Origin: a bacterium
GTDB taxonomy: Bacteria > KSB1 > UBA2214
DNA length: 9,178 nt
Assembly (NCBI GenBank): GCA_029560815.1
Contig: JAKQKF010000131.1
Coordinates: 1-9,178 of the forward strand
Direction: 5' to 3'
Below the pieces are notes generated by a model that saw nothing but the letters and a program-made list of their open reading frames with translations, was not told the DNA's origin and did not search any database. Position 1 is the stretch's first letter; every line of letters begins with the position of its first letter. This document shows, piece by piece, positions 1 through 9,132 of this stretch. A program made the translations under genes and the position numbers.

Positions 1-1926
1 CAGTGGTACCGCGACGCCAAATTCGGCATCTTCATCCACTGGGGGCTCTATTCGGTGCCGGCTTTCACCCGCAAGGGCGGCTACGCCGAATGGTACTGGA
101 ACGGCATCGCCGACACCTCCACTTTCATGCACAAATGGCATCACCGCACTTACGGAGATGACTTTCAGTACCAGGATTTCGCTCCGCTCTTCAAGGCCGA
201 ACTCTACCGGCCGGACAAGTGGGCCGAGCTCTTTGAGCGCGCCGGGGCCCGCTATGTGGTGCTCACCTCCAAACACCACGACGGCTTTTGCCTCTGGCCC
301 AGCACCCAAAGCTGGAACTGGAACAGCGTCGATGTCGGCCCTCATCGCGATCTGCTCGGCGATCTGACCCAGGCGGTACGGGCGCGCGGGCTGCGCATGG
401 GTTTTTACTACTCCCTGCTCGAATGGTTCAATCCCCTCTACCGCAGCGACATCAACAACTATGTCGGCGAGCACATGCTGCCCCAGCTCAAGGAGGCTGT
501 CACTCTCTATCAGCCCTCCATCATCTTTTCCGACGGCGAGTGGGATCATGACAGCCGGGTGCTGCGGAGCGAGGAATTTCTCGCCTGGCTGTACAACGAC
601 TCACCCGCGCCGAAGGATGTGGTGGTGAACGACCGCTGGGGCGGCGAGACCCGCTTCAATCATGGCGGCTATTTCTCGACCGAATACGAGGCGGCCGACA
701 GCGAGCGCTCCGCGGCCTTTCTCGCGCGCGGCTGGGAGGAGTGCCGGGGCATGGGGCGCTCCTTCGGCTTCAACCGCAACGAGGATGTGCAGGACTATCA
801 GACCGCCGAAGCCCTCATTCACATGCTGGTCGAGATCGTCAGCCGCGGAGGCAATCTGCTCCTCAATATCGGCCCGGCCGCCGACGGCACCATTCCGGTG
901 ATCATGCAGGAACGGCTGCTGCAGATGGGGGAGTGGCTCAAGGTCAACGGCGAGGCCATCTATGGCAGCCGCGTCAACCGCACGACGGGCGAGGGCGATT
1001 CGGTGCGCTTTACCCGCAGCGCCGACGGCCGCTGGCTCTATGCCATCGCGCTGCGCCATCCGGGCGCACAGCTGCGCCTCGGGAGCGTCGAGGCGATGCC
1101 GGGCAGCGCTGTGCGGCTGCTGGGGCTCGACCGCGACCTGAAGTACCGGCAGGAGGGAGGAGAACTGGTCATCGATCTGCCGGCCGGGATCATCCACCGC
1201 ATGCCCTGTGACCACGCCTGGGTTTTCAGGATTCAGGCCCGCCCCTATGTGGAGCGCCCGGCCATTCAGGCCGCCTCTTTCATCAGCATCGACAAACCTT
1301 TGCGCCTGACCCTGACCGCCGAGCCGGCCGATGCGCAGATCCGCTACACGCTGGACGGCACAGAGCCCACCCCGGCGAGCCCCCTCTACACCGGATCCCT
1401 GCGTCTCAGCTCGAGCGGCCTCCTGCGCGTCAGCGCTTTCCGGGAGGGCTTTGCCCCCAGCCTGACGGTGCAGCAGCAGGTCAGCGTCCTCAAGAGCGGA
1501 GAGAACGGCCTCGCCTGCCGCTATTATGAGGGGGAGTGGTCCGAGCTGCCCGATTTCGACGCGCTCAAACCGGTCCGGGAGCTCCGGGCCTGGGATTTTT
1601 CCCTCGCTCCCGTCATCCGGCGCGAGGAAAATTTTGCTCTCGTGTTCGATGGTTATCTCCGGATCGACCGTGCGGGTAAATATGCCTTTTTTACCCGTTC
1701 CGACGACGGCTCGTGCCTCTGGATCGACGGCCGTCTGGTGGTCGATAACGACGGCCTGCACGGGGCCCGGGAGGCCGGGGGCGAGGTTGAGCTGGCACCC
1801 GGCCGTCACGCCCTGCGCGTCGGCTTTCTCGAACGCGGCGGGCAGGAACTCCTCCAGGTCTCCTGGCAGGGGCCGGAGCTGCCGAAACAGCCCCTTCCGC
1901 CCTCACTGCTCTACCGGCGCAAGTAG
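1..1926 (+). CDS. GH29 alpha-L-fucosidase with chitobiase-type C-terminal module and PA14 domain (5' end outside window)
   Basis: The enzyme should release alpha-L-fucose from glycans by the retaining mechanism of family GH29, probably outside the cytoplasm. The frame is open from base 1, so the true start and any signal peptide are off the window; 641 residues are visible. GH29 hallmarks are FGIFIHWG (window residues 8-15), TSKHHDGF (89-96), the RDLL...RMGFYYS stretch that follows, and FSDGEWD, whose Asp178 (bases 532-534) fits the catalytic nucleophile. A conserved GGNLLLNIGP block starts near residue 283. The acid/base Glu is less certain; Glu228 or Glu230 in STEYE are candidates. After a beta-rich fucosidase C-terminal domain comes a chitobiase/hexosaminidase C-terminal-like module (about 425-493, with YTLDGTEPT). 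A PA14 domain follows (about 501-641, with FFTRSDDGSCLWIDG), probably for carbohydrate binding. There is no T9SS tail. It lies 104 bases before the PNGase-like gene on the same strand. Confidence 0.93.
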   Translation, partial: QWYRDAKFGIFIHWGLYSVPAFTRKGGYAEWYWNGIADTSTFMHKWHHRTYGDDFQYQDFAPLFKAELYRPDKWAELFERAGARYVVLTSKHHDGFCLWPSTQSWNWNSVDVGPHRDLLGDLTQAVRARGLRMGFYYSLLEWFNPLYRSDINNYVGEHMLPQLKEAVTLYQPSIIFSDGEWDHDSRVLRSEEFLAWLYNDSPAPKDVVVNDRWGGETRFNHGGYFSTEYEAADSERSAAFLARGWEECRGMGRSFGFNRNEDVQDYQTAEALIHMLVEIVSRGGNLLLNIGPAADGTIPVIMQERLLQMGEWLKVNGEAIYGSRVNRTTGEGDSVRFTRSADGRWLYAIALRHPGAQLRLGSVEAMPGSAVRLLGLDRDLKYRQEGGELVIDLPAGIIHRMPCDHAWVFRIQARPYVERPAIQAASFISIDKPLRLTLTAEPADAQIRYTLDGTEPTPASPLYTGSLRLSSSGLLRVSAFREGFAPSLTVQQQVSVLKSGENGLACRYYEGEWSELPDFDALKPVRELRAWDFSLAPVIRREENFALVFDGYLRIDRAGKYAFFTRSDDGSCLWIDGRLVVDNDGLHGAREAGGEVELAPGRHALRVGFLERGGQELLQVSWQGPELPKQPLPPSLLYRRK

Positions 1927-2030: not shown

Positions 2031-5000
2031 ATGAAACGGTTGATTCTATACGCCGCAGCCCTGGCGCTGACGGCGAACAGTTACGGCCAGATTCGCGGCA
2101 TCGCCGGAGCAGAGCGCCTGACGGCGTGGCAGGTGGCCGATTATGCCGCAGACTACCGGCCGGCGCCCGCGGCTGCCGGGACCGCTCCAGCGGCCGGCTT
2201 TTTCAAGAGCGGTAGCCAGGAGTACGTCCTGATCGACCAGCTCGCTATCGATGATTATGTCATGCCGCGCGAGCGCTGGGCCGTCGCCTTTGATCCCGCG
2301 CGCTGTGATCTGACCCTGCACGCCCCGGCCGCTGCGGACCGGCTCAACGATGAGGCCCTGGCCGCCATCGAACGCGCGCCGGACTGGCTGGAGCGGGATC
2401 TGCGCCTCACTTTCTCCCTGCTCACCCCGGAGTTTCAGACCCTGTGGGCCAACGGCATCCTCGCGGCCGAGGATCCCTGCATCGACGAATTCGCCTTCGC
2501 TGTCGCCCACTCCTCGCCGCAGTACCTGATGTCCGGTTACGGCTCACCCGGGCTCTTTCTCGAGAACGCCAGATCGATCTATGCCAACGATGCCTTTCTG
2601 GATTACGTCGAGGTGGTCGACTACGGCACCTCTGCCAGCGATCCCGATTATTATACCACCACCCGCTACAAGACCCTGCGCAGCGGCAGCCTGGTCGAGG
2701 TCGTCGCACCGCGCGATGTCTATTACTGGTATATCGTCTATCCCCGCGCCACCAGCGAGATCCCGGCTTATGTCGATCCCGCTGTTTCCGAGAGCAACTC
2801 GCTGCGCAACAACAACATCGCCGCCCCGCCGGCCGGGGTTTTCTGGCGTGATTTTCTCCTCAACCACGCCGACGAGGGTTATCCCCTCTTGCGCGATCAG
2901 CTCAAGGGCTGCAAGGCCCTCTTCGACGGCACCCGCGGCATACCGGAGGCCAATGCCACCGCCCTGGGGCGCCTCAATACCTGGATGGAGAAGACCCTGG
3001 CCTTCGATTCGAAGGAGGAGCGTCCCCATCAGCCGGTGCGCATCTATCGCGTCCATATGGGGCGCTGCGGCGAGTGGTCCGATCTGCGCAACGCCGCCGC
3101 CCGCGCCGCCCTTATCCCCTGCACCAGCGTCGCCTCCTATTCGACCGACCATGTCTGGAACGAATTCTGGGATGGCCAGTGGTACCACTGGGACAACGAG
3201 ACCAACTATCCCCTCATGTACTATCTGAGCTGGGGCAAGGTCTTCGGTACGGTCTTTGAAATCCGCCCGGACGGTGCCCTCACCTCTGTCACCAGCCGCT
3301 ATACGCGCGGTATCTGCTATATCGATCTCTATATCACCGACAGCGCCGGCCGGCCTGTCGATGGCGCCGAGGTCAATCTCTACACCAAGGACCCCACCAC
3401 CGGGGAGCTGTGGTGGGATATGTACGCCCTCACCGATGACAAGGGGCAGTGCACTTTTGTGGTCGGCAAGGACCGCGGTTACTACGCTGCCATCACTTCG
3501 GCCATCGGGATTCATCCCGCCAAAGCGGGCGGTGTGGTGGAAGTGGTCGCCAACGCGGTCAGCGGTACCGATTACAGCAAGAAGATCAAGATGACGCAGA
3601 CCAAACCCGCCCCGAAATGGAATGCAGCCGCGGCTCCAACAGATGGTGGCGAGGACTATTATCTGCAGGCGGAGTTCAACGCCCCAACGCAGATCCTCAG
3701 CGGCGCCATTCGCTTCGATGACGTCCGCCTCGGCTCCCAGCTCTACCAGTCGGATTGGGATGGCAGCATCGATTTTTATTTCGCCGATTCGGCCAATTTT
3801 GCGGCCGCCGCTGCCGGCAGTGCTTTCGACGCCGTCGGACTGCTGCCCGACTCGCTTTCAGGACTCGGCTGGCTCTCCCTGCCCATGGACCAGCGGTGGT
3901 ACGCCGTCTTCGGCAACGAGCAGAACAGCCGCAATGTGCAGCGTCTCACAGCGACGGTCAAGCTCTTCGCCCGCGCAGCGGCACTGAATCAGCAGACCCT
4001 GACCTGCACGGCCGGCTGGAACTGGATCGCTCTCAACGTCGCTCCCTCCTCAACGGCGGTGGCTGATGTGCTCGCCCCGCTGGGCAGCAGCGCTCTGCGG
4101 ATCAAGTCTGCACAGGCCGAGGCGGTGCATGAAACGGGTAAAGGATGGACCGGGACGCTGCAAAACCTGGAAGCCGGCAAGGGCTATCTGCTCCAGCTTG
4201 ATTCCGGACAGGATTTTACCGTGACGGCGCCCATCCTGCCGGTGGACCAGCCGATTACACTGGAGAAGGGATGGAACTGGATCGCCTATCTCGCCCACGC
4301 CGGATTGCCGGTGGCCGAGGCCCTCGCCCCGATCGCGGACAAGGTCTATCAGATCAAGGGGCAGCAGCAGTCGGCCATGTATGCGGAGGGGAAGTGGATC
4401 GGCGACCTCGAGTGGCTCGCACCCGGCCGCATGTACAAGATCAATATGACCGCCCCCGCTGCCCTGAGCTGGCCCAATCCCCAGCCCGCGCTGGCCAAAC
4501 CAGCCTCCGCCGCTGCGGAGATCATGCCCGGAACCGCCGGCAATATGGTGGTGATCGCCCGCATCACCAGCGGCCATGATTTCCGGCAGGCGACCATCGT
4601 CGATGATCAGGGCAACCGCCGCGGCTGCGGCGTGCCCATCCCCGGGACCGGCCTCTACTACTTCACCATCGTCGGGGATGTGGAAAAGGAAGCCCTCTCC
4701 GTAGAGCTGCGCGTCATCCCGACCGGCTGGCAGACCAACTGTGTGCAGAAAATCCCGTTCAAAGACGATGCCACTCTGGGCACCCTGAAGGCGCCTCTCC
4801 ACCTCTCGGACGGCGCGATCACTTTCCGGCTTGGCCGGAACTATCCCAATCCCTTCAACAGTGGAACGACCCTGCGCTACAGCCTGGCCGAACCCGGGCA
4901 GGCCCGTCTGGTGATTTATGACGCACTGGGCCGCCGGGTGCGGGTGCTCCTCGACGGTGTGCAGCCGGCGGGCGAGGGGATCGCCTCCTGGGATGGCCGG

Positions 5001-5096
5001 GATGAGTACGGCCGTCCTGCCGCTGCGGGTATCTACTTCGCCCGGATCACGGCCGGCGGGTCGCACCAGAGCTGCAAGATGCTCCTGCTGCGCTGA
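2031..5096 (+). CDS. Secreted PNGase-like transglutaminase-fold protein with T9SS sorting domain
   Basis: This 1021-residue protein is probably exported by Sec and then carried across the outer membrane by the type IX system. A signal peptide covers residues 1-19, with probable cleavage at SYG/Q. Residues 20-330 form a region I do not recognise. The catalytic core (about 335-425) reads GRCGEWS, then STDHVWNEFW, then QWYHWDNE. These place a Cys346-His374-Asp388 triad in the order of the transglutaminase/PNGase fold. The wording, including a WGK block at 401-403, is close to eukaryotic cytosolic PNGase (Png1/NGLY1), which cuts N-glycans from asparagine. The zinc-binding CxxC pairs of that enzyme are absent. 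Next come a carboxypeptidase-regulatory-like beta domain (about 428-520), an unassigned beta-rich segment, two GWNWIA modules (655-815), and a FlgD-like sorting domain (about 934-1021) with YPNPFN at 938-943. Fold and triad are well supported. Amidase activity on glycoproteins is an inference; a protease or cross-linking role is possible. Confidence 0.9.
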   Translation: MKRLILYAAALALTANSYGQIRGIAGAERLTAWQVADYAADYRPAPAAAGTAPAAGFFKSGSQEYVLIDQLAIDDYVMPRERWAVAFDPARCDLTLHAPAAADRLNDEALAAIERAPDWLERDLRLTFSLLTPEFQTLWANGILAAEDPCIDEFAFAVAHSSPQYLMSGYGSPGLFLENARSIYANDAFLDYVEVVDYGTSASDPDYYTTTRYKTLRSGSLVEVVAPRDVYYWYIVYPRATSEIPAYVDPAVSESNSLRNNNIAAPPAGVFWRDFLLNHADEGYPLLRDQLKGCKALFDGTRGIPEANATALGRLNTWMEKTLAFDSKEERPHQPVRIYRVHMGRCGEWSDLRNAAARAALIPCTSVASYSTDHVWNEFWDGQWYHWDNETNYPLMYYLSWGKVFGTVFEIRPDGALTSVTSRYTRGICYIDLYITDSAGRPVDGAEVNLYTKDPTTGELWWDMYALTDDKGQCTFVVGKDRGYYAAITSAIGIHPAKAGGVVEVVANAVSGTDYSKKIKMTQTKPAPKWNAAAAPTDGGEDYYLQAEFNAPTQILSGAIRFDDVRLGSQLYQSDWDGSIDFYFADSANFAAAAAGSAFDAVGLLPDSLSGLGWLSLPMDQRWYAVFGNEQNSRNVQRLTATVKLFARAAALNQQTLTCTAGWNWIALNVAPSSTAVADVLAPLGSSALRIKSAQAEAVHETGKGWTGTLQNLEAGKGYLLQLDSGQDFTVTAPILPVDQPITLEKGWNWIAYLAHAGLPVAEALAPIADKVYQIKGQQQSAMYAEGKWIGDLEWLAPGRMYKINMTAPAALSWPNPQPALAKPASAAAEIMPGTAGNMVVIARITSGHDFRQATIVDDQGNRRGCGVPIPGTGLYYFTIVGDVEKEALSVELRVIPTGWQTNCVQKIPFKDDATLGTLKAPLHLSDGAITFRLGRNYPNPFNSGTTLRYSLAEPGQARLVIYDALGRRVRVLLDGVQPAGEGIASWDGRDEYGRPAAAGIYFARITAGGSHQSCKMLLLR
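3993..4475 (+). repeat. Two tandem GWNWIA modules within the PNGase-like protein
   Basis: Residues 655-735 and 741-815 are diverged copies of one module of about 75-80 residues. Both open with a short beta strand and GWNWIA (662-667 and 747-752). Both then carry VA followed by a LAP block (DVLAPL and EALAPI), a lysine-containing IK strand, a GKxW stretch (GKGW and GKWI), a DLEWLAPG or NLEAGKG turn, and a closing hydrophobic strand ending near TAP. I recall similar modules in other T9SS-sorted proteins but cannot give a family name. They are likely surface-attachment or spacer domains; binding is unproven. Confidence 0.75.
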
Positions 5097-5118: not shown

Positions 5119-5145
5119 GGATATTTCTCCTAGATAGTGTATTCT
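5117..5145 (+). promoter_or_regulatory. Weak candidate promoter for the alpha/beta hydrolase gene
   Basis: In a short AT-rich island, TTGGAT (5117-5122) and TATTCT (5140-5145) are separated by 17 bases. They match 3 of 6 and 4 of 6 positions of the sigma70 boxes. The site begins right after the terminator and 52 bases before the ATG, which is sensible for an independently transcribed gene. The same stretch also loosely fits the Bacteroidota TAnnTTTG box, so the sigma factor type is open. Confidence 0.3.
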
Positions 5146-5157
5146 TGGTTCACACAC

Positions 5158-5163
5158 AGGAGA
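5158..5163 (+). promoter_or_regulatory. Ribosome binding site fixing the hydrolase start
   Basis: AGGAGA lies five bases before the ATG at 5169. This favours 5169 over the in-frame TTG at 5145, which would put non-signal residues in front of the signal peptide. Confidence 0.75.
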
Positions 5164-5168
5164 AAGAT

Positions 5169-6575
5169 ATGAAACGATTTAAAATGGTTGTCATCTTGTC
5201 CTTGCTCAGCCTCTCTTTTGCTCAGGGTGTCAGCGCTCAGGATCTGGCCGGCAGCTGGCAGGGGACGCTCAAAATTATGGGCGCCAGCTTGCGTCTGGTA
5301 TTCCATTTCGAAAAAAGCGACAGCGGCTGGACCGCTCTCCTCGACAGTCCGGATCAGGGTGCCGCCGGCATTCCGTGCGGCAGGGTCAGCACCCCGTCGG
5401 ACTCGCTCATCGTGCAAGTGCCCGTCGTCCGCGGCCGCTATCTGGCGCGCTTCCGCAGTGACAGCCTCTTTTACGCCGGCTCCTGGCAGCAGGGGGGAAT
5501 GGAGATGCCCCTCAACCTGTTCAAGAGCGAGAAACCCGTCGTCATGAACCGTCCCCAGACACCCGAACCGCCCTTTCCCTATCGCATTGAGGAAGTGACG
5601 ATACCCAATCCCCGGGCGGGCCTCACCCTCGCCGGCACCCTGACTTTGCCGGAAGGGGAGGGGCGCCATCCGGCCGTCATCCTCATCACCGGCTCGGGAG
5701 CGCAGGATCGCGACGAGACCATCTTCGGCCACCATCCCTTTTGGGTCATCGCCGACCATCTCAGCCGCAACGGCTTTGCGGTGCTGCGCTGCGATGATCG
5801 CGGCACAGCCTCCTCGACCGGTGATAGATCAGCCGCGACGAGCCTGGATTTTGCTGAAGATGCGGCCGCCCAGTTCGACGCGCTCGCCCGGCGCCCCGAC
5901 ATCGATAAAAAGCGGATCTTTTTCGCCGGCCACAGCGAGGGCGGCCTGATCGCCCCGCTGGTCGCCACCGGGAAGAGGAAAGTGGCCGGGATCATCCTTC
6001 TCGCCGGGCCCGGCGTGACCGGGGAGAAAATCATGCTCGCCCAGGGTGAACTTATCGGCCGCGCTGCCGGGCAGGATGAGGCTTCCCTGCAGCGCAACCG
6101 CCGGAACCAGATTACTTTCTTTAATATTGTCAAATCGGTCGGGGAGGGGGAGAAACTCGAGGCAGAACTGCGCGCGGCCATGTCGGAGCTGCGGAGCGGG
6201 TTGAGCGCGAATGAGCAGGAGGCGTTGACCGATCAGGCGATCGATATGCAGGTGAAACAGCTGGCGTCGCCCTGGTTCCGCTTCTTTCTGCTCCACGATC
6301 CGGCGCCGGTGCTGCGCAAGGTCAAATGTCCAGTGCTGGCCCTCAACGGCGAACTGGATCTGCAGGTTCCGGCGGATGAAAACCTCGCCGCCATCGCCGC
6401 GGCGCTCCATGCCGGCGGCAACAAGCGTTTCGAGACCCACAAGCTTTCCGGCCTCAACCATCTCTTCCAGACCGCTCAAACCGGCGGGGTGGATGAGTAC
6501 CTCCGCATCGAGGAGACCTTTTCGCCGCAGGCGCTGGAATTGATGACCAACTGGCTGCAAGCGCAGATCAGATAG
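5169..6575 (+). CDS. Exported alpha/beta hydrolase (serine esterase or peptidase-like)
   Basis: The product is a 468-residue serine hydrolase, probably periplasmic or outside the cell. A signal peptide covers residues 1-23, with cleavage expected at VSA/QD. Residues 24-120 form a beta-rich N-terminal domain (AGSWQG...LRLVFHF) that I recall from other exported hydrolases of this kind. The alpha/beta core starts near 140 and contains TGSGAQDRDE (174-183, oxyanion-hole region) and RCDDRGTASSTGD. The nucleophile elbow GHSEGG has Ser256. Asp397 in NGELDLQVP and His431 in GLNHLF complete the triad. A charged helical cap (about 283-375) interrupts the core. The substrate cannot be read from sequence; an esterase acting on acylated sugars would suit the neighbours, but a peptidase is equally possible. 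The gene appears to have its own promoter and ends at a hairpin shared with the convergent gene. Confidence 0.9.
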   Translation: MKRFKMVVILSLLSLSFAQGVSAQDLAGSWQGTLKIMGASLRLVFHFEKSDSGWTALLDSPDQGAAGIPCGRVSTPSDSLIVQVPVVRGRYLARFRSDSLFYAGSWQQGGMEMPLNLFKSEKPVVMNRPQTPEPPFPYRIEEVTIPNPRAGLTLAGTLTLPEGEGRHPAVILITGSGAQDRDETIFGHHPFWVIADHLSRNGFAVLRCDDRGTASSTGDRSAATSLDFAEDAAAQFDALARRPDIDKKRIFFAGHSEGGLIAPLVATGKRKVAGIILLAGPGVTGEKIMLAQGELIGRAAGQDEASLQRNRRNQITFFNIVKSVGEGEKLEAELRAAMSELRSGLSANEQEALTDQAIDMQVKQLASPWFRFFLLHDPAPVLRKVKCPVLALNGELDLQVPADENLAAIAAALHAGGNKRFETHKLSGLNHLFQTAQTGGVDEYLRIEETFSPQALELMTNWLQAQIR

Positions 6576-6633: not shown

Positions 6634-8079
6634 TCAGCCTTTTTTCGGCATCGGCAGCGGTTCTTCGCGGCCGGGCATTATGGTATAGTCAGGGTAGCCG
6701 ATGCCGCCGGCCAGGCTGGCGATCTCGACCGGCTTATTGGTCGCCATCGAGCGATTGGCGGCGATGCCGGTCAAGCAGGAGTAAGCTCCGCTGCGCTGGT
6801 CCGCGGCACGCAGATACTTGTCAACCTTTGGCCGCGGCGAGAAGAGATCGTCCAGCATCACAGCGTCGCCCCCGCCGTGCCCGCCCTCTCCCTTCCATAA
6901 TTCCACCTCATAAGCCGGTTCGCGCAGGGGATAGATGCGGGTATAGGTGCCGTCCCCCTTGAGGGCTCCGGGCACACTGCCGTCGCCGAAGAGGTAGATC
7001 TGCTCTTCAGCCTTGTGTTCCAGCCGTCCTTTTGTGCCGTTGAAAATCACATAGTAACCTTCCCAGGCGTTGAAGGCGTTGAGACTGTAGGCCATGGTGA
7101 CGTTGTTGTCATAGCGCACCAGCACATTCATCGTATCTTCGATGTCGATCCCGGGCCGGAAGACGCAGCGGTCACGGAAATAGCCGTCGTACTGCTCGTT
7201 GTCGAGGTAGAGCTCTTTCAGATTCTTGTTTTTTTCGAGGTCCAGCTCGAAGGCGCACCCGGTTTTTTCCGGGCAGGTGTGACAGCGTTCATGATAGCCT
7301 GACAATCCCATCCGTCCGGCCATACCGGGAGTATAAAACTCCCTTTTGCCGGTGGCATAGACGGAGACCGGGATGGCCGAGAGCCACCAGTTGATCAGAT
7401 CGAAGTGATGGGTTGCTTTGTGCACCATCAGGCCGCCGGAATTCTTTTTCTGGCTGTGCCAGCGGCGGAAATAATCGGTGCCGTGACGGGTATTGAGCAT
7501 CCAGTGAAAATCGACGGAGAGGATGTCGCCGATGGTCCCCTGCATGAGCAGATCCTTGATTTGGGTGCGCGGCGGCGAATAGCGATAGTTGAAGGCTGTC
7601 GTGCAGCTCCTGCCCGTTTGTTTGACCGCTTTGAGGATGGCGCGGCATTTTTCGGCGTTGGTGGTCATCGGCTTTTCAGTGATGACATCGCATCCCAGCT
7701 GCATGGCACGGATAATATACTGGTGATGGAATCCATCCACTGTGGTGACAATCACCGTCTCCGGCCGGGTTTCTGTGATCATCCGGTCGAAATCGCTGGC
7801 AGCATAGATGGGTGGTTCCGGCTGATTGAGGGAGCGCGCGTAGCGCTGCGCCCGCTGCAGGCGGCCGTGATTGGTATCGCATAAGCCGGTGATCTCAGCA
7901 TGGCCGGCATAGGTCCTGAGAATGGCATCCTGATACATATAGGAGCGTGAGCCGGTGCCGACGATGGCATAGCGTTTTTTGCGTTCGCCCTGCGCCTGCA
8001 GGCTTTCCGTGCCCGCGAGCAAGATTCCGGCCCCACTCAGGGCAGCGGTTTGGATGAATTTACGTCGCGTGACCTTCAT
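6634..8079 (-). CDS. Tat-exported Gfo/Idh/MocA family oxidoreductase
   Basis: This 481-residue protein is an NAD(P)-dependent dehydrogenase-like enzyme that probably acts on a sugar or cyclitol outside the cytoplasm. The start at 8079 is supported by GGAGGAG seven bases upstream and by a twin-arginine signal beginning there (TRRKFIQ at 4-10, then a hydrophobic stretch to about 25). An in-frame ATG at 8145 would add 22 unrelated residues. The Rossmann domain opens with YAIVGTGSRS (37-46), and EKP at 135-137 supplies the usual catalytic Lys136. His224 in KATHHFD fits the conserved histidine of the C-terminal domain. An insert carries Cys266, Cys269, Cys275 and Cys305, a possible metal site. GGHGGGD (399-405) is a further conserved-looking block. 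It follows the GH128-like gene by 87 bases on the same strand, probably in one transcript. The NAD-dependent glycosidase family GH109 is related, but EKP argues for a dehydrogenase. The substrate is unknown. Confidence 0.9.
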   Translation of the reverse strand: MKVTRRKFIQTAALSGAGILLAGTESLQAQGERKKRYAIVGTGSRSYMYQDAILRTYAGHAEITGLCDTNHGRLQRAQRYARSLNQPEPPIYAASDFDRMITETRPETVIVTTVDGFHHQYIIRAMQLGCDVITEKPMTTNAEKCRAILKAVKQTGRSCTTAFNYRYSPPRTQIKDLLMQGTIGDILSVDFHWMLNTRHGTDYFRRWHSQKKNSGGLMVHKATHHFDLINWWLSAIPVSVYATGKREFYTPGMAGRMGLSGYHERCHTCPEKTGCAFELDLEKNKNLKELYLDNEQYDGYFRDRCVFRPGIDIEDTMNVLVRYDNNVTMAYSLNAFNAWEGYYVIFNGTKGRLEHKAEEQIYLFGDGSVPGALKGDGTYTRIYPLREPAYEVELWKGEGGHGGGDAVMLDDLFSPRPKVDKYLRAADQRSGAYSCLTGIAANRSMATNKPVEIASLAGGIGYPDYTIMPGREEPLPMPKKG

Positions 8080-8085
8080 GAACAG

Positions 8086-8092
8086 CTCCTCC
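8086..8092 (-). promoter_or_regulatory. Ribosome binding site of the oxidoreductase gene
   Basis: Read on the minus strand, GGAGGAG stands seven bases before the ATG at 8079. It decides in favour of the start that opens the Tat signal. Confidence 0.8.
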
Positions 8093-8130
8093 AGTTGATT
8101 TGGCTTTTGACCGATGTTCAGATTTTCGGG

Positions 8131-8162
8131 CAGCGCAGCCGTCACCCGCCGGGCTGCTGCTG
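8131..8162 (-). other. Intercistronic hairpin between the glucanase and oxidoreductase genes
   Basis: CAGCGCAGCC (8131-8140) pairs with GGCTGC (8152-8157) and GCTG (8159-8162), with a single bulged base at 8158 and an 11-base loop. The 10-bp stem lies just after the glucanase stop. No T run follows on the minus strand, so it may reduce read-through or stabilise the upstream part of the message rather than stop transcription. No separate promoter for the oxidoreductase is evident in this 87-base gap. Confidence 0.45.
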
Positions 8163-8166
8163 ATCC

Positions 8167-9057
8167 CTATTTGAAGGGCAGTTCGATGTAGAGTTTGCCC
8201 AGCTCCGAAAGCTCCCCGTCGATGGCGGTGAAGAGATAGGTGAAGTGGCGGTCCGGAAAATCGCCCCGGCCGTAGAACCAGGCGTAGCGGAAGACATCCT
8301 CACGGTTTTCGCAGATGGTCACCATCTCGGTCATCTGCTGCTTCTGTTTGGCGTAGGAAGTGATCTGGGCGTTCCAGTTGGCCATTTCGGTGACCCAGAT
8401 CTTTTTGTTGTATTTCTTCAGCCGGTCGAGCTGGCCGCTCAGGCCGTAATCGTACCAGTGGAAGGCGAGATAATCGATGCGGGGTTCCCTGTCACCGTTG
8501 GCGGCCTTGTAGGCGGCATAAAAAGCGTCGAGCCAGGCCACGGGATCAGCGTAGCCGGTCATGGTGCCCCAGGTGATCGCCGGACCGACGAGCTGGACCG
8601 TCCGGCCGAGATCGGCGAGATCCTTGATCACCTGCTCATAGCGGATCCAGTCGGCGGCTGCCTGGGCCGGGGTGCGGTTGGCCTGGTCGGTCAGGTTGGG
8701 CTCGTTCATTACCAGCAGGTACTTGACGTTGGCGTGACTCATGATGAAGCTTTTAACCCGTGTCATGTCGTTCGCGCTGGTGTTTCCGCCCCAGAGCATC
8801 GGCACGAAATCCATACTGTAGGCAGACTCGTACTCCGCCGGCGCCGTTGTCGAGGGAGATGGCGCCCAGTTGTACCACCAGCTCACCCCTTTGGAGAGGG
8901 CGGCGAAATCAGCGGGTGAGGCGAGGTTGAAGGCGATGCCCCGCTTCCAGCTTTTGGCCGCGGTATCGTCGGGCTCGGATTTGGTCGGCGATTTGTCCTT
9001 GCAGCCGTTTGCCGCGAAGGTCAGGGCGAGCAGGCTGAGGATGATGATCCGCTTCAT
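8167..9057 (-). CDS. GH128-like glycoside hydrolase, probable lipoprotein (endo-beta-1,3-glucanase-like)
   Basis: The 296-residue product resembles the Glyco_hydro_cc/GH128 TIM-barrel family, whose characterised members cut beta-1,3-glucan. A short signal peptide ends in AANGC, giving a probable lipidated Cys19 with a slightly atypical lipobox, followed by a polar linker (20-36). The barrel starts near RGIAFN (39-44). VSWWYNWAPSP (58-68) is a family hallmark. NEP (118-120) supplies Glu119 as likely acid/base, and IWVTEMANW (220-228) supplies Glu224 as likely nucleophile. AFHWYDYG (198-205) and a late YAWFYGRGD block also fit. The size suits a single catalytic domain without binding modules. 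AGGAG seven bases upstream supports the start at 9057; an ATG at 9093 lacks a binding site. It is the first gene of a probable two-gene unit. The family assignment is strong; the exact glucan is inferred. Confidence 0.87.
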   Translation of the reverse strand: MKRIIILSLLALTFAANGCKDKSPTKSEPDDTAAKSWKRGIAFNLASPADFAALSKGVSWWYNWAPSPSTTAPAEYESAYSMDFVPMLWGGNTSANDMTRVKSFIMSHANVKYLLVMNEPNLTDQANRTPAQAAADWIRYEQVIKDLADLGRTVQLVGPAITWGTMTGYADPVAWLDAFYAAYKAANGDREPRIDYLAFHWYDYGLSGQLDRLKKYNKKIWVTEMANWNAQITSYAKQKQQMTEMVTICENREDVFRYAWFYGRGDFPDRHFTYLFTAIDGELSELGKLYIELPFK

Positions 9058-9064
9058 GATATCA

Positions 9065-9069
9065 CTCCT
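9065..9069 (-). promoter_or_regulatory. Ribosome binding site of the GH128-like gene
   Basis: AGGAG on the minus strand lies seven bases before the ATG at 9057. It selects the start that begins directly with the lipoprotein signal peptide. Confidence 0.75.
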
Positions 9070-9132
9070 TTTGATCAGTCGAGGGGTTCTCATTCAGGGG
9101 GGCCAGCATCGAATTCAATAAATACTTTCATA

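Follow-up and report, generated by a model that had tools for sequence, protein, structure and literature searches.

Enzymes of the transglutaminase fold use a Cys-His-Asp triad to cleave an amide by way of a thioester, and the closest described counterparts of the protein discussed here are the cytosolic peptide:N-glycanases (PNGases; NGLY1/Png1, PDB 2f4m, 1x3w and 3esw). The protein is encoded in a 9,178-nucleotide (nt) stretch of DNA, hereafter the window, comprising positions 1 to 9,178 of contig JAKQKF010000131.1 (assembly GCA_029560815.1) from a bacterium of the lineage KSB1 (UBA2214). We propose, with a probability of roughly 0.4, that its core belongs to the PNGase/Rad4 branch of the transglutaminase fold and that it acts as a secreted cysteine amidase cutting the bond between N-acetylglucosamine and asparagine (GlcNAc-Asn) in N-glycoproteins.

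With the cytosolic PNGases it shares the order of the triad, a similar spacing, the words GRCGEW and DHVWxE, a P-L-Y...W(G/N)K block and a terminal RY, and they are its best match both by sequence and in Foldseek. Unlike them, it has a His-Asp spacing of 14 rather than 17, W..WD where PNGase has W.H.D (the W and D being shared), a secretion signal, a type IX secretion system (T9SS) tail and an immunoglobulin (Ig)-like domain directly after the core; it is without the zinc CxxC pairs, PUB and PAW, and the triad Asp is Glu in most of its aligned relatives. As it is without the zinc pairs, PUB and PAW and differs in its predicted cellular location, we place it outside the cytosolic NGLY1/Png1 family.

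The transglutaminase-like domain of XPC/Rad4 (PF03835), which comes next after PNGase in Foldseek and among the core sequence matches, is called inactivated in the title of Anantharaman 2001 (listed among the references of PMC10318531); unlike it, the window protein has an intact triad, and Pfam gave it no PF03835 match with E ≤1. PNGase F and PNGase A, named as the two PNGase superfamilies in a passage of PMC12381499, would share the proposed reaction, and their bacterial members are also extracellular, but neither domain was matched by the window protein in Pfam, NCBIfam and PDB searches. Extracts of the review PMC10154615 make no mention of transglutaminase or NGLY1, and no published report of a secreted bacterial transglutaminase-type PNGase was found in the open-licence literature.

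Catalytic core and export signals

The features of the gene and its product are as follows.

2031..5096 (+): coding sequence of the secreted transglutaminase-fold protein, 1021 amino acids (aa), with GGAG just 5′ of the ATG
2031..2090 (+): N-terminal secretion signal, about residues 1-20, by inspection
2328..3005 (+): conserved helical/beta N-terminal part, residues 100-325, modelled confidently together with the core
2946..3194 (+): Transglut_core domain (PF01841), residues 306-388; Pfam 35.4 bits, cut-off 23
3066..3068 (+): Cys346, the predicted nucleophile, within GRCGEW; Cys in 118/118 aligned rows
3150..3152 (+): His374, within DHVWNE; His in 118/118 aligned rows
3192..3194 (+): Asp388, within QWYHWD; Asp in 36 and Glu in 82 of 118 aligned rows
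3231..3239 (+): WGK block, residues 401-403, aligned with WGK/WNK of PNGase; W in 117/117 rows with a letter
3294..3302 (+): SRY, residues 422-424, aligned with WRY/KRY of PNGase; Y424 in 118/118 rows
3330..3536 (+): Ig/transthyretin-like domain, a weak CarboxypepD_reg match (Pfam), residues 434-502
4842..5081 (+): FlgD_ig / T9SS type A sorting tail (Pfam, NCBIfam), residues 938-1017

The PF01841 match above cut-off and the conserved Cys-His-acid triad place the protein in the Transglut_core superfamily, as judged from sequence. Its motifs begin with GRCGEWS (344-350) and continue with TDHVWNEFW (372-380), QWYHWD (383-388), WGK (401) and SRY (422), and the order GRCGEW, DHVWNE, W..WD, WGK, SRY put forward in the original prediction is borne out. 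The spacing given with it also holds, with 28 residues from Cys to His and 14 from His to Asp against 27 and 17 in the mouse/yeast PNGase segments.

A protein search gave 341 relatives at E ≤1e-3 among 7997 scored candidates, including relatives with the length and domain order of the window protein. Family protein statistics rest on 120 listed of these 341, one of which (P0002) has 99% identity to the window protein; the alignment of 118 rows consists of the window protein, 99 of the 120 and 18 of the 80 genomic loci described below. The 28/14 spacing is kept in 119 of the 120. The ordered signature occurs in 96/120 listed relatives, in 120/120 listed PNGase matches and in 0/45 other transglutaminase-core segments, a few of which were read in the wrong frame; typical bacterial transglutaminase cores do, as had been claimed, match these words less well. 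GRCGE together with DHxW was found in 0/40 aligned other transglutaminase-core rows, five of the 45 having been left out of the alignment for lack of a C...HxW match. The W of GRCGEW does not characterise the family, since this position in the 118 rows holds Y (47), H (42), N (13), W (9) and others.

The signals for export had likewise been correctly noticed. The protein starts with MKRLILYAAALALTANSYGQ, which, read by eye and without a dedicated predictor, is a typical export signal, and its tail scores 35.4 bits to TIGR04183 against an NCBIfam cut-off of 23. According to the Pfam annotation of the list, 106/120 relatives carry FlgD_ig or a T9SS tail, and PorV genes, a T9SS context, are near loci L002 and L006. 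There is no CxxC in the whole protein, as predicted; any CxxC is present in 5/120 listed relatives versus 120/120 listed PNGase matches.

Comparison with PNGase and other transglutaminase folds

Against all PDB sequences the sole significant core matches of the window protein were mouse and yeast PNGase (2e-7 to 5.5e-5). With the family profile the same enzymes scored 8.4e-11 to 1.1e-9, and the next core match was XPC (E 0.77); 3e8v, a "possible transglutaminase-family protein" (E 0.021), matches the Ig-like part only. A profile search had been suggested as a check in the original prediction, and among PDB sequences the core matches PNGase best.

When a mouse and yeast PNGase profile was used, a family member ranked first in 8/8 genomes, all chosen as carriers; these genomes contain another 40 Transglut_core rows, many of them scoring far higher in Pfam. 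In two wider samples this profile had matches at E ≤1e-5 in 7/246 and 1/247 genomes. The top match of each sample was a family member, that of the sample's central genome. Profile-profile comparison of PNGase with 13 bacterial groups, three of them single sequences, gave 104 for the family, 64.5 for the GACEP group and lower scores for the remaining 11. "GACEP type" is our ad hoc name for planctomycete/KSB1 transglutaminases with GRCxE...NHAWVE...GACEP. These are the next-best profile match to PNGase and third for the window family, whose own best partners were L156 (104.5), PNGase (99.7) and GACEP (66); unlike the family, they have Gly at the aligned triad Asp in most rows, NH for DH and no WGK block.

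L156 lies in a planctomycete-phylum genome (G256) as a 1809-aa open frame containing a distant relative with SCGEHS, DHQWNE and the core Asp. Its core is 35% identical to that of L005, and we place it as an outlying branch of the window protein family.

That the resemblance to PNGase is due to chance, or is generic to all proteins of this fold, is hardly credible. The motifs are short, W..D and HxWxE recur elsewhere in the fold, and some planctomycete proteins that do not belong to the family score comparably against the PNGase profile; the signature is nevertheless absent from all 45 other segments, and the profile comparison stands at 104 against at most 64.5. Chance likeness of motifs was ruled out on these two grounds together with the PNGase-profile ranking.

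A true transglutaminase cross-linking extracellular proteins is very unlikely as well. The family profile found no sequence match to TG2, TG3 or factor XIII up to E 1, and the PNGase-specific WGK/SRY extension is conserved. A generic transglutaminase was ruled out by sequence in the family-profile search of PDB, although the folds tie in VIA-align, where factor XIII and TG3 equal PNGase at a Z of 9.8.

Foldseek with a model of the core (residues 100-438; mean predicted local distance difference test score, pLDDT, 94) ranked the PNGases first, followed by XPC. The core was modelled alone because Ig-like and transglutaminase folds had filled a first fold search that included the Ig-like domain; this search returned mostly Ig/transthyretin-like folds and eukaryotic transglutaminases, and PNGase was absent among its best 50 matches. 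The bacterial fold matches, 3isr and 3kd4, are labelled putative cysteine protease and putative protease, respectively, and they favour a different explanation, namely a secreted cysteine peptidase or amidase acting on surface or nutrient proteins, which has retained an ancestral PNGase-like core and for which sugar is not the substrate. By eye, the GACEP-type transglutaminases seem to share the order of a core followed by Ig-like strands, which also favours it; the best matches by sequence and Foldseek, on the other hand, are the PNGases and not 3isr or 3kd4. We regard such a peptidase as a serious possibility, at clearly less than even odds, and return to it below with the gene neighbourhoods.

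Trees of the core were built on 137-140 columns. The first joined the family and PNGase with support of 97/85. A second set of rows, from which seven long-branch rows had been dropped before building, rejected PNGase+GACEP at no point (p-AU, the approximately unbiased test, 0.11-0.23 over the runs) and rejected family+GACEP (p-AU 0.005), which later runs did not (0.11 and 0.43). In this second set PNGase joined two long-branched proteins, L143 and L148, and the test rejected family+PNGase (p-AU 0.013). Two things contributed to this rejection: L143/L148 grouped with PNGase, and L156 had been treated as an outsider although it branches with the family. Once L143/L148 were removed and L156 was assigned to the family, family+PNGase received 80/51, and 98/86 when L153-L156 were also left out; the rows for both of these trees were chosen after the second-set result was seen.

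Several of these results weigh against a PNGase-type enzyme. Depending on which rows are used, support for family+PNGase lies between 98/86 and 80/51, PNGase joins L143/L148 in the second set, PNGase+GACEP is not rejected, and we read the trees as leaning towards family-PNGase kinship only. The Foldseek matches cover about 105/339 columns with TM-scores of 0.26-0.30, and the tie in VIA-align has been mentioned. Two planctomycete-phylum proteins outside the family, L153 and L154, match the PNGase profile at 2.4e-9 and 5.5e-8, over profile positions 5-65 only, its first two thirds. The window protein is without the zinc CxxC, PUB and PAW, and Pfam gave no match to PF03835 (Rad4-type), PUB or PAW at E up to 1. 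To the same side belongs the predominance of Glu as third triad residue noted in the feature list. Closer placement among proteases or generic transglutaminases, named at the outset as the outcome that would speak against a PNGase, was not obtained in the searches, but the trees rest on some 140 columns and shift with row choice.

Distribution and gene neighbourhoods

A scan of genome contigs yielded 82 relatives, of which 80 loci were kept. These are mostly from Candidatus Cloacimonadota and also from KSB1 and Calditrichota, a few being labelled Bacteroidetes, Ignavibacteria, Phycisphaerales and others; a search of viral contigs gave no relative of the window protein. The gene is present in 60/124 genomes of the Cloacimonadota-type phylum (that of G004 and L012) and in 7/82 of the phylum to which G003 (L005) and the KSB1 genomes belong. 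The immediate neighbours in the window are the following.

1..1926 (+): alpha-L-fucosidase (GH29) with CHB_HEX_C and PA14, truncated at its 5′ end by the window edge; lies 104 nt before the family gene
5145..6575 (+): alpha/beta hydrolase whose best NCBIfam match, EstD, is below cut-off; lies 48 nt after the family gene, an order shared by L001

The order of fucosidase and then family gene recurs in L001 and L002. GH29 is also a direct neighbour in L002, L005 and L059 (downstream in the last), and the neighbouring fucosidases of three lineages are only about 27-34% identical. Six KSB1/Caldithrix genomes examined have 4-8 GH29 matches each in 3.5-7.3 Mb. It is therefore improbable that GH29 adjoins the family gene so often by chance, although genes for glycoside hydrolases do tend to cluster. 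In the KSB1/Calditrichota phylum GH29 is next door in 4/7 carrier genomes; the contigs taken as the remaining three (L006, L014 and L050) are short, with flanks partly visible.

The gene order of L005 is GH3-GH29-family gene-DUF4838. A table in PMC9870897 equates DUF4838 with GH163, and according to a passage of PMC10154615 a characterised GH163 cleaves the GlcNAc-mannose bond of complex N-glycans. The GH29 neighbours and the DUF4838/GH163 gene beside the family gene therefore fit the harvesting of N-glycans. DUF4838 matches occur in 34/82 genomes of the phylum, including 7/7 carriers (hypergeometric 0.0014).

Other results from the neighbourhoods must be set against this. Among KSB1/Calditrichota loci, DUF4838 was seen adjoining the family gene in L005 only; the hypergeometric test, run after L005 had been seen, counts related genomes as independent; and strong DUF4838 matches (>300 bits) are found in 5/7 carriers versus 13/75 non-carriers. 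In the Cloacimonadota-type phylum DUF4838 occurs in 1/124 genomes and GH29 in 5/124; four of these five are carriers, and 56/60 carriers are without a GH29 match. A family-wide link with GH29 or DUF4838 was thus not found in Cloacimonadota. In 12/80 loci the longest frame of the family gene begins 1-19 nt after purM (L013, L016, L019, L022, L023, L025, L036, L037, L040, L062, L070 and L071), with purL next in nine of them; most also have guaB, purQ or pyr genes close by, guaB or pyr being on the upstream side. A secreted enzyme is here found inside a nucleotide-synthesis block. A tie between Asp or Glu at the triad and gene context was considered and dropped, because Asp copies also adjoin purine genes (L020, L023, L029 and L040).

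For the secreted peptidase introduced above, the presence of the family in 60/124 genomes of a phylum with little GH29 or DUF4838, and a third triad residue that is mostly Glu, are points in favour, while the fucosidase neighbours in three lineages are against it. The dozen copies in the purine/pyrimidine block look more like a house function than a catabolic one, and the named sources are environmental metagenome-assembled genomes. Both would suit an enzyme acting on another amide-linked sugar, such as N-glycans on surface proteins of archaea or of the cell itself, or an amide of the peptidoglycan type, rather than on eukaryotic N-glycans. We consider this unlikely, and the KSB1/Calditrichota context is catabolic.

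Of the PNGase-type interpretation, then, the likeness to the eukaryotic enzyme stands as real and specific, and part of the gene context fits extracellular glycan breakdown; the Glu-type majority of the family is found in Cloacimonadota, which have few fucosidase or DUF4838 genes. "N-glycanase" is used here as a hypothesis.

Proposed reaction and further observations

N-glycanase activity of the window protein is predicted from sequence at somewhat under even odds. The protein would be a T9SS-sorted, secreted cysteine amidase of the transglutaminase fold, in which Cys346, activated by His374 and Asp388, would attack the side-chain amide to form a thioester that water would then hydrolyse. In this bacterium and the other KSB1/Calditrichota members the amide would most likely be the GlcNAc-Asn linkage of extracellular N-glycoproteins, and the enzyme would act within a fucosylated-glycan locus alongside the neighbouring alpha-L-fucosidase. 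In yeast PNGase, according to a passage of PMC9102325, disturbing the CxxC zinc site can abolish activity. The window protein would use neither the zinc module nor the PAW domain of the cytosolic eukaryotic enzyme, and the Ig-like domain and the N-terminal part may perhaps give stability in place of the former.

The family may tentatively be viewed as a third superfamily of extracellular N-glycanases, T9SS-secreted and NGLY1-type, which would harvest glycoproteins with fucosidases and GH163-type enzymes and without a zinc module. If so, the eukaryotic PNGase/Rad4 branch has close bacterial kin. Were the window protein active, the PNGase/XPC branch would gain a bacterial counterpart, the tools for N-glycan release would be extended by a secreted enzyme whose fold is unrelated to that of PNGase F, and it would be seen how KSB1/Calditrichota bacteria attack glycoproteins; it would also test the need for the zinc module in PNGase chemistry. 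Were it inactive on glycans, PNGase-like signatures by themselves would not report function.

Further downstream in the window, on the minus strand, are a Gfo/Idh/MocA-type oxidoreductase (6634-8145), whose TAT-like signal is weak and scores below cut-off, and a small glycosyl hydrolase of the PF11790 type (8167-9093) with, by eye, a lipoprotein-like start; with these two genes the window is rich in carbohydrate genes. Contigs G002:C128 and G001:C343 each have alpha-L-fucosidase-like and DUF4838 (GH163) matches on the same strand, in frames of the same length (1456 aa and 981 aa), which suggests fused enzymes.

The family copy of L059 (G071:C110), on a KSB1 contig, has an in-frame TAG within the matched region, after which the frame is open; this may be a pseudogene or an assembly error. 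A ROK regulator lies upstream, its best NCBIfam match being NagC, far below the model's cut-off. On two contigs labelled Armatimonadetes/Armatimonadota (L022 and L034) the family gene is near purL, as in Cloacimonadota, L022 being in a full purine/pyrimidine block. The genome of L022 (G005) falls within the phylum sample of G004, and with the Cloacimonadota-like setting we surmise that these labels are probably old or wrong.

The window protein has an additional stretch (3990-4520) with two GWNWIA segments, placed after its Ig-like part and ahead of its sorting tail, which was not seen in the relatives of about 750 aa inspected and is a feature of the window lineage.
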